Origin: Paracoccus methylovorus
GTDB taxonomy: Bacteria > Pseudomonadota > Alphaproteobacteria > Rhodobacterales > Rhodobacteraceae
Direction of reading: 5' to 3'
NCBI RefSeq assembly: GCF_016919705.1
Contig: NZ_CP070368.1
Span: 930,001 to 994,000, forward strand
DNA length: 64,000 nucleotides
The first letter of the stretch is position 1. Each line of letters begins with the position of its first letter. Position numbers and translations under genes: made by a program. The notes under the pieces were generated by a model. That model searched no databases, was not told where the DNA came from, and saw nothing but the letters and a program-made list of their open reading frames with translations. Below are positions 19,382 through 54,160 of the stretch, piece by piece.

Positions 19382-19396
19382 GTTCCCTAAATGTTC
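19382..19396 (+). promoter_or_regulatory. LexA box (GTTC-N7-GTTC)
   Basis: GTTC-CCTAAAT-GTTC is a perfect match to the direct-repeat SOS operator of Rhodobacter-type alphaproteobacteria. It ends 12 bp before the ATG of the radical SAM gene. Confidence 0.7.
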
Positions 19397-19408: not shown

Positions 19409-20491
19409 ATGAACCTGCCACCCCGGAACCCAGACGAGATCCTGCGCGCACGCGGCGCCGAGTCGCGCCCGGCTGCGCGGTTCGAGCCCTATCAGACCCA
19501 ACGCCAGCATGACGGCTGGGACATTTCCGAGGATCAGAACCTGCTGCGCACCGAGGTCACGCAAGAGCAGGCGCGCTCGATCATCACCCGCAACCGGTCG
19601 CCGGACATTCCCTTCGACCGCTCGATCAATCCCTATCGCGGTTGCGAACACGGTTGCATCTATTGTTTCGCCCGGCCGAGCCATGCCTATCTGGGCCTTT
19701 CGCCGGGGCTGGATTTCGAAACCCGCATCACTGCCAAGCCCAACGCACCCGAGCTGCTGTCGGCAGAGATCGGCAGGCGTGGATATTCGGTCGCGCCCAT
19801 CGCCTTTGGCACCAATACCGATCCCTATCAGCCCATCGAGGCGAAGCTCTGCATCATGCGCGGCTGTTTGCAGGTGCTGCATGACTGGAACCACCCGCTA
19901 AGTCTGGTGACGCGAGGCGCCACGGTCATGCGCGACACCGATCTGTTGGGGGCGATGGCGGCCAAGGGGCAGGTCATAGCCTGCGTGTCCATCACGACGC
20001 TGGACCCGGAGCTGGCCCGGCAGATGGAGCCTCGCGCGCCGGCGCCAGCGACCCGGCTGCGGATGATCCGTGCGCTGTCAGATGCCGGTGTGCCGGTGCG
20101 CGTCATGGTCGCGCCGGTGATCCCGGTGCTGACCGAACACGAATTGGAACGGATCATGCAGGCCGCGCGCGATTCCGGCGCAACGGCCGCCGGTATGATC
20201 CCGATCCGCCTGCCGCTGGAGGTGGCGCCGCTGTTTCGGGACTGGCTGCAGCGTCACCACCCTGGCAAGGCGGCGCATGTCATGGCACGGGTGCAGGCGA
20301 TGCGGGGCGGGCGCGACAACGACCCGCGCTTTGGCAGCCGGATGCGGGGCGAAGGGCATGAGGTCGCCCTGCTGCATCAGCGGTTCCGTCTGGCCCGCCA
20401 GCGGCTGGGATTACAGCGCGAAGCCGAGGTTTTGGATTGCAGCCGCTTTGGTCCGCCGCCTCGGGCAGGGGATCAGTTGTCGCTGTTCTGA
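19409..20491 (+). CDS. PA0069-type radical SAM protein, related to spore photoproduct lyase
   Basis: A 360-residue radical SAM enzyme with the 4Fe-4S motif CEHGCIYCFARPSH near residue 80 (Cys-x3-Cys-x2-Cys), preceded by RSINPYRGC. This arrangement places it in the SplB-like/PA0069 branch. Family relatives repair UV spore photoproduct, but activity of this branch is not established. A perfect LexA box directly upstream makes it an SOS gene candidate, which fits a DNA-damage role. The C-terminal ~60 residues are basic and variable. Confidence 0.85.
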   Translation: MNLPPRNPDEILRARGAESRPAARFEPYQTQRQHDGWDISEDQNLLRTEVTQEQARSIITRNRSPDIPFDRSINPYRGCEHGCIYCFARPSHAYLGLSPGLDFETRITAKPNAPELLSAEIGRRGYSVAPIAFGTNTDPYQPIEAKLCIMRGCLQVLHDWNHPLSLVTRGATVMRDTDLLGAMAAKGQVIACVSITTLDPELARQMEPRAPAPATRLRMIRALSDAGVPVRVMVAPVIPVLTEHELERIMQAARDSGATAAGMIPIRLPLEVAPLFRDWLQRHHPGKAAHVMARVQAMRGGRDNDPRFGSRMRGEGHEVALLHQRFRLARQRLGLQREAEVLDCSRFGPPPRAGDQLSLF

Positions 20492-48623: not shown

Positions 48624-53825
<5,202 letters not shown>

Positions 53826-53827
53826 AT

Positions 53828-53853
53828 GTTCGCAAGATGTTCCCAATAAGTTC
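53828..53853 (+). promoter_or_regulatory. Two overlapping LexA boxes: three GTTC half-sites at 11-bp spacing
   Basis: GTTC at 53828, 53839 and 53850, each pair separated by exactly 7 bases (GCAAGAT and CCAATAA). The alphaproteobacterial LexA operator is GTTC-N7-GTTC. The third half-site overlaps a weak -35 (GTTCTT) placed 17 bp before TATGAG. Confidence 0.75.
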
Positions 53854-53866
53854 TTTACATCCGCCG

Positions 53867-53893
53867 TTGTTTATGAGAACAAATCATAAACAA
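53867..53893. repeat. 10-bp inverted repeat before the 31-codon gene
   Basis: TTGTTTATGA-N7-TCATAAACAA, perfect, ending 16 bp before the ATG. In RNA it would be a hairpin close to the ribosome site; in DNA it could bind a dimeric regulator. Confidence 0.6.
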
Positions 53894-53909
53894 ACTGTGG
53901 AGAGATTAT

Positions 53910-54005
53910 ATGACCCGTGAATCCCTCTCTGACCTGCTGGGCACCGTCGCGATTTCGGTGACTGCCATCATCCTGTTTTCCTTGCCATCCATTCTGGCAG
54001 CCTGA
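53910..54005 (+). CDS. 31-residue single-span membrane peptide, SOS-controlled candidate
   Basis: ATG 53910 follows a GGAGAG ribosome site. The product has a short charged start (MTRESLSD) and a hydrophobic helix covering residues ~9-30 (LLGTVAISVTAIILFSLPSI), so it should insert in the inner membrane. Upstream are three LexA half-sites at exact spacing and a hairpin. Size, one-helix layout and SOS control are shared with E. coli TisB, although there is no sequence similarity. A proper terminator follows, as expected of a real gene. Confidence 0.7.
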   Translation: MTRESLSDLLGTVAISVTAIILFSLPSILAA

Positions 54006-54084
54006 CCCCTCACTGCCCCGCGCATTCGGCGGCCCTTGCCTGGGGGTGCGTCGCGACCTTCCCCGGGCGATCATGCGCGCAACT

Positions 54085-54110
54085 GCCGGCCCTTAAGGCC
54101 GGCTTTTCTT
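54085..54110 (+). terminator. Terminator after the 31-codon gene
   Basis: GCCGGCC-CTTAA-GGCCGGC followed by TTTTCTTT, about 80 bp past the stop. Confidence 0.85.
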
Positions 54111-54160
54111 TATCGTGCTAGCTGTAGTCCTTGGCGGGAGGCAAAGATCGCCTCCGGCGG

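Follow-up and report, generated by a model that had tools for sequence, protein, structure and literature searches.

Directly downstream of recG in Paracoccus methylovorus lies a small gene encoding a 31-aa single-helix peptide, and comparative data strongly support the view that the gene is under LexA control and that its product is a genuine small membrane peptide. It is one member of a single-helix protein family (31–47 aa) with near-invariant Asp and Gly residues, found in 128 of the 135 genomes of the Rhodobacteraceae that were assessed (14 of 149 fell outside the assessment). The interpretation that we favour, offered tentatively and as somewhat short of probable, is that this chromosomal, LexA-repressed gene of most Rhodobacteraceae examined encodes an inner-membrane inhibitor of the divisome, produced after DNA damage. 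The peptide is, in short, a candidate brake on cell division after DNA damage, encoded beside the DNA-repair gene recG in a family that includes the marine roseobacters.

Operator and layout of the locus

The window, i.e. the whole stretch of P. methylovorus DNA that was analysed, is 64,000 nt long. The features of the locus, in window coordinates, are as follows.

51711..53825, + strand: recG, the upstream neighbour, outside the unit (Pfam RecG_wedge, DEAD, Helicase_C and RecG_dom3_C)
53828..53842, + strand: upstream GTTC-N7-GTTC, an overlapping LexA-type box (triple form in 11/30 same-genus loci, the window counted)
53839..53853, + strand: main GTTC-N7-GTTC, a LexA-type box (exact box in 30/30 same-genus and 117/130 family loci)
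53854..53859, + strand: TTTACA, a possible -35 element (in most of 121 loci the box is followed by TTTAC)
53867..53893, no strand: perfect 10-bp inverted repeat, not conserved
53877..53891, - strand: inverted half-site pair GAAC-N7-AAAC, a putative second LexA site, degenerate in the window
53899..53904, + strand: ribosome-binding site GGAGAG (SD-like sequence in 123/128 members)
53910..54005, + strand: gene for the 31-aa single-helix peptide, ATG start
54013..54111, + strand: genus-conserved 3' UTR element comprising CUGCCCC-GCG, a closing stem, C-rich stretches and the terminator
54085..54103, + strand: terminator stem (four pairs changed on both sides among 28 same-genus sequences)

What the sequence-only reading described here is borne out. 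Three GTTC half-sites at 11-bp spacing (53828–53853) sit directly after the recG stop codon, the 31-codon frame has a good ribosome site before its ATG, and the terminator stem is followed by a T-rich tail. The proposed hydrophobic helix agrees with a best 15-residue mean hydropathy of 2.47 (locus L061). The perfect 10-bp inverted repeat reported between operator and start is also present; it is not a conserved feature, because arms of at least 9 occur in 4/30 same-genus loci, the window's among these. It spans the conserved GAAC-N7-AAAC site, and was rejected as a regulator, being probably incidental.

In the 121 loci that have the exact box its spacer is A-rich, and in 98 of them a GAAC begins exactly 23 nt downstream of the second GTTC. 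Seven nt past GAAC the tetramer is CAAC in 84 of the 121, GAAC in 13, TAAC in 7 and AAAC in 6, and GAAC-N7-NAAC was found in 30/30 same-genus loci. Read on the opposite strand this is a second GTTC-N7-GTTC-like site, so that the promoter may be held by LexA at two places.

Membership of the alphaproteobacterial LexA (SOS) regulon is indicated by GTTC-N7-GTTC in the promoter region, the published LexA motif of Caulobacter (PMC12700426), and by the presence in the P. methylovorus genome of a LexA gene and of further copies of this box ahead of known SOS genes. lexA and recA have the plain box in front of them, as does a Y-family polymerase gene that matches DNA polymerase IV models with E down to 3e-47, below their cut-offs. 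The plain box is likewise present before a probable imuA–imuB pair (IMS domain E 8e-5, just under the cut-off), the first gene of which we take to encode ImuA. A study of LexA in Dinoroseobacter names other targets, and the word 'recG' does not occur in its main text (PMC6473078).

Other GTTC arrangements were seen. GTTCCCTAAATGTTC stands at 19382–19396, just ahead of a radical SAM gene of the PA0069 family (19409–20491, + strand), a further SOS candidate. At locus L213 a Y-family polymerase gene and a divergent frame are separated by a stretch with several GTTC half-sites (about 1482–1520). Genome G023 contains 46 matches to GTTC-N7-GTTC-N7-GTTC (26 forward and 20 reverse), many of which include units resembling GTTCATGCAC, whereas the other genomes compared have 0–4 each; the set in G023 looks like a dispersed repeat, not LexA sites.

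Distribution of the peptide family and selection on its frame

A search with the C-terminal part of RecG covered 149 genomes of the family, about one per genus, and 148 gave a match, in a few cases just to another helicase. At the 130 loci downstream of recG that were examined (30 that came with the search output and 100 retrieved separately), there is a short hydrophobic frame in 124 and an exact GTTC-N7-GTTC within 450 nt in 117; six loci have neither. The sequence-only reading had proposed a search for the box plus a small ORF beside recG in relatives, and had named a box kept beside a broken frame as evidence against it: box and frame occur together in 117/130 loci and the box alone in none. 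The LexA-controlled small membrane peptide which that reading described is therefore upheld at the level of sequence, box and frame being conserved together. The seven peptide loci lacking the exact box deviate from it in spacing or by single changes; GAAC-N7-NAAC is retained in six of them. A 150-nt control stretch further downstream contains the box in 0/130 loci.

Four of the six genomes with neither element at this position carry the gene elsewhere. A profile was used to search 16 genomes in which the gene was missing right after recG or there was no proper recG match. Eight of these matched, the displaced gene lying at one extreme roughly 0.5 kb downstream of recG (G168) and at the other on a separate contig (G108), and 8/8 keep the upstream GTTC-N7-GTTC and GAAC-N7-NAAC. 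The operator belongs to the peptide gene and travels with displaced copies. No match at E up to 0.1 was obtained in G109, G054, G165, G122, G014, G029, G059 or G095, the last five of which, added to the 130 loci, make up the 135 assessed genomes. The gene is not indispensable, because seven family genomes are without a profile match.

Chance has to be considered, since a single box and a 31-codon frame could arise randomly. There are seven GTTC-N7-GTTC sites in the window, against 1.26 expected (0/100 shuffles reach seven), and other such sites in the window lie within genes. A chance box with a spurious frame beside recG is nevertheless next to negligible as an explanation, being contradicted by the joint conservation of the two elements in 117/130 loci, by the operator kept in displaced copies, and by the 23-nt gap, the residue conservation and the pN/pS values given below. 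A chance site tied to recG itself is ruled out by the displaced copies, all eight of which keep both operator elements, and by the empty control stretch.

Within the genus, tblastn with the 31-aa peptide matched 91 of 101 genomes at E up to 1 (about 3e-13 to 0.94), and the same-genus counts given here refer to the best 30 of these 91 matched loci, the window's own included. One of the ten unmatched genomes (G165, 71% complete) has a distant helicase match alone for recG. The other nine comprise five with the gene after recG (L062, L091, L096–L098) and four in which it is displaced (L224–L227).

A 46-row profile run against 385 genomes of the class gave matches in five genomes of the same family and in three more; in these three, part of the model matched inside frames of 290–453 aa (E 0.004–0.005), and no credible relative was found outside the family in this search. 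A protein search returned 290 proteins at E up to 0.001. Among the 120 matches listed, those given a name by their source bear the label hypothetical or uncharacterized, and where an organism is stated it belongs to the Rhodobacteraceae or their relatives. The window peptide is without a match in Pfam, NCBIfam, PHROGs and PADLOC; another member has one PHROGs match at E 0.2, and the single match among solved structures has E 0.69. A plasmid or phage gene was considered and rejected, tblastn of one member giving no match in plasmid (E up to 0.01) or phage (E up to 0.1) collections. We found no published description of the peptide family in a literature search conducted mostly outside subscription papers.

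The 128 members beside recG (124 family-survey loci and four genus loci) all start with ATG, 123 have an SD-like sequence and 88 are 40 aa long; frames were chosen by hydropathy, SD and ATG, which biases those features and not the conserved Asp and Gly. The Asp is present in 127, the Gly in 124 and a late Pro in 115, with Asp-x-x-Gly in 123. In the last group the mean charge is +1.04 at the N terminus and 0 after Asp-x-x-Gly; the N terminus of the window peptide itself has a net charge of 0. Pooled pN/pS over the 30 same-genus loci is 0.39, and it is below 1 in 377 of 378 pairs having at least 45% protein identity and a synonymous difference, a filter that favours low values. Two alternative frames, with the filter off, give 0.96 and 2.66. 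These values indicate that the peptide frame is under purifying selection, and together with the residue conservation they rule out a spurious ORF. The near-invariant Asp, Gly and late Pro suggest a specific partner, which they fit better than a generic pore.

This bears on the toxin or persistence factor of TisB type proposed by the sequence-only reading. A peptide of that type would depolarise the inner membrane, lower ATP and favour persisters. Size, single helix and LexA-type operator are alike (TisB has 29 aa, is LexA-controlled and is depolarising; PMC8145889), and a double operator would make sense for a product that does harm. Against this, the gene is chromosomal and nearly family-wide, with Asp, Gly and late Pro shared by nearly all members. 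No IstR-like RNA was seen with Rfam (no match) or in a crude promoter scan (0 sites), neither of which is sensitive to a novel antisense RNA, and the conserved part of the RNA lies 3', not 5' as in tisB. We regard a TisB-like action as unlikely, and the toxin and persistence role as unsupported.

The 3' UTR as a putative RNA element

The 3' UTRs of the 128 family members contain CTGCCTG in 88 cases (4.3 expected) and CTGTCCC in 90 (4.5 expected), while the reverse complements of the two motifs occur in 0 of 128. CTGYCY is present at a mean of 3.0 copies per 3' UTR, against 0.44 in shuffles, and the mean unpaired probability of the two motifs is 0.71, against 0.49 for 7-mers of the same composition. 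In single predicted folds, counted with no shuffle control, 91 of the 132 CTGTCCC sites are unpaired (56 of them in hairpin loops) and 41 are paired, and a first CTGCC followed by a long-range stem is seen in 91/99. The motif pair CTGCCTGCG-N5-35-CTGTCCC has matches in 61/149 genomes and its reversed control in fewer (16 by count); by our reading, roughly half of the matches are at the recG-linked locus and the rest are scattered.

In the genus the motif takes the form CUGCCCC-GCG with a closing stem. Alignment of 28 of the 30 same-genus loci shows 6/13 consensus pairs changed on both sides, four of these in the terminator. Folding of five single genus sequences gave four that outdid their shuffled versions (z -2.40 to -2.94); the fifth, the 3' UTR of the window, did not (z -0.60). 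The window copy contains neither CTGCCTG nor CTGTCCC in exact form, and neither motif is present in the 170 nt viewed at the displaced same-genus loci L224–L227. Rfam gave no family for the 3' UTR at E up to 1 (12 loci) and no match in the window at gathering scores. Pairing of the 3' UTR with its own 5' region was not supported, as the duplex energy is above the shuffled mean strength in just 40/128 and 7-mer complements occur in 0–1 of 128.

The sole target lead for an sRNA from the 3' UTR is GGGACAG, the complement of CTGTCCC, around the start of mraZ, at the head of the division/cell-wall cluster. It occurs in 12 of 23 mraZ leaders (L233–L255) of 365 nt, with the start set by a crude rule, in a sample for which 23 of 24 genomes had been picked for carrying the motif pair at this locus. 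In leaders with a located start the count is 8/13, against 176/5862 background stretches of 165 nt; CAGGCAG is in 1/23 leaders. The mraZ GGGACAG overlaps the start, the ribosome region and repeats that are possibly MraZ boxes. As a target, mraZ is therefore no more than a lead. Passages of the study describing UpsM, which in Rhodobacter sphaeroides is the sRNA of the mraZ/dcw leader, name no site of GGGACAG type (PMC5089854).

These features suggest a dual-function transcript, in which a small membrane protein and a conserved C-rich 3' UTR RNA may be coupled under SOS control. The RNA could even be the main product, with the peptide secondary to a 3' UTR that acts as a small RNA of the SOS response; the enrichment of CTGCCTG and CTGTCCC, their high unpaired probability and the complement in mraZ leaders would all agree with this. 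The selection on the peptide frame argues against it, as does the lack of both exact motifs in the window and of either at L224–L227, and we think it very unlikely. A family-wide SOS checkpoint carried by one transcript, with the peptide stopping the divisome and the 3' UTR acting as an sRNA on division-gene messages, is distinctly improbable.

Proposed function and comparison with known systems

The divisome inhibitor is favoured because of the analogy with SidA, the lack of SulA matches above cut-off and the near-invariant residues that point to a specific partner. The sequence-only reading knew of no similar peptide in this group, which overlooks SidA of Caulobacter crescentus, a 29-aa LexA-controlled inner-membrane SOS division inhibitor acting on FtsW (PMC4211646). 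In Caulobacter without LexA, filamentation depends on sidA (PMC12700426). A division inhibitor of SulA type was not found: the SulA domain has no match in the P. methylovorus genome and is above the cut-off in 0/149 family genomes, the E. coli control being positive, and the one sub-threshold match carries two stops.

LexA would bind GTTC-N7-GTTC near the -35 element, and probably also the conserved inverted pair 23 nt downstream, until RecA-triggered cleavage of LexA, by the established pathway, frees transcription. The peptide would then insert as one helix, probably with the N terminus inside and the C terminus outside, in keeping with the mean charges given above. Its Asp-x-x-Gly face and Leu-Pro end may recognise one particular membrane partner, the likeliest being the late divisome (FtsW/FtsI/FtsN), so that division would be held back until repair is done. 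The choice of the divisome as target is made by analogy. The conserved C-rich 3' UTR may add an RNA-level function, in cis or in trans.

The conserved Asp-x-x-Gly and Leu-Pro would also suit an SOS regulator that acts by helix–helix contact on some other membrane protein, such as a transporter, a protease, or part of a DNA uptake or respiratory complex. No positive pointer to such a partner was found, and the known role of the alphaproteobacterial analogue is division inhibition (PMC4211646); this seems rather unlikely, and the divisome remains the preferred target.

By sequence alone, the family has both the small hydrophobic LexA-controlled peptide of the TisB/IstR type I toxin–antitoxin class and the single-helix membrane protein of about 30 aa under LexA that characterizes the SidA type. 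TisB of E. coli (tisB/istR-1) is likewise hydrophobic, about 30 residues long and under LexA (PMC8145889), but it is controlled by 5' UTR structure and the antisense RNA IstR-1, whereas the conserved RNA part of the present family is 3'. UpsM is, similarly, a Rhodobacteraceae RNA tied to division genes; it differs in belonging to the 5' leader of the dcw cluster and not to an SOS 3' UTR, and at most neighbours the possible pairing site (PMC5089854). DidA of Caulobacter, too, is a small single-helix protein of an alphaproteobacterium that inhibits division and is induced by DNA damage, but it is larger (71 aa) and SOS-independent (PMC4211646). SidA shares with the recG-linked family an alphaproteobacterial host, a tiny single helix, an inner-membrane location and LexA control through GTTC-N7-GTTC (PMC4211646, PMC12700426); compared by description, Asp-x-x-Gly, the usual adjacency to recG and the conserved 3' UTR belong to the present family. 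Sequence homology aside, SidA is a closer functional model than TisB. If the two are unrelated, SOS mini-proteins of the SidA kind would have arisen more than once in the alphaproteobacteria.
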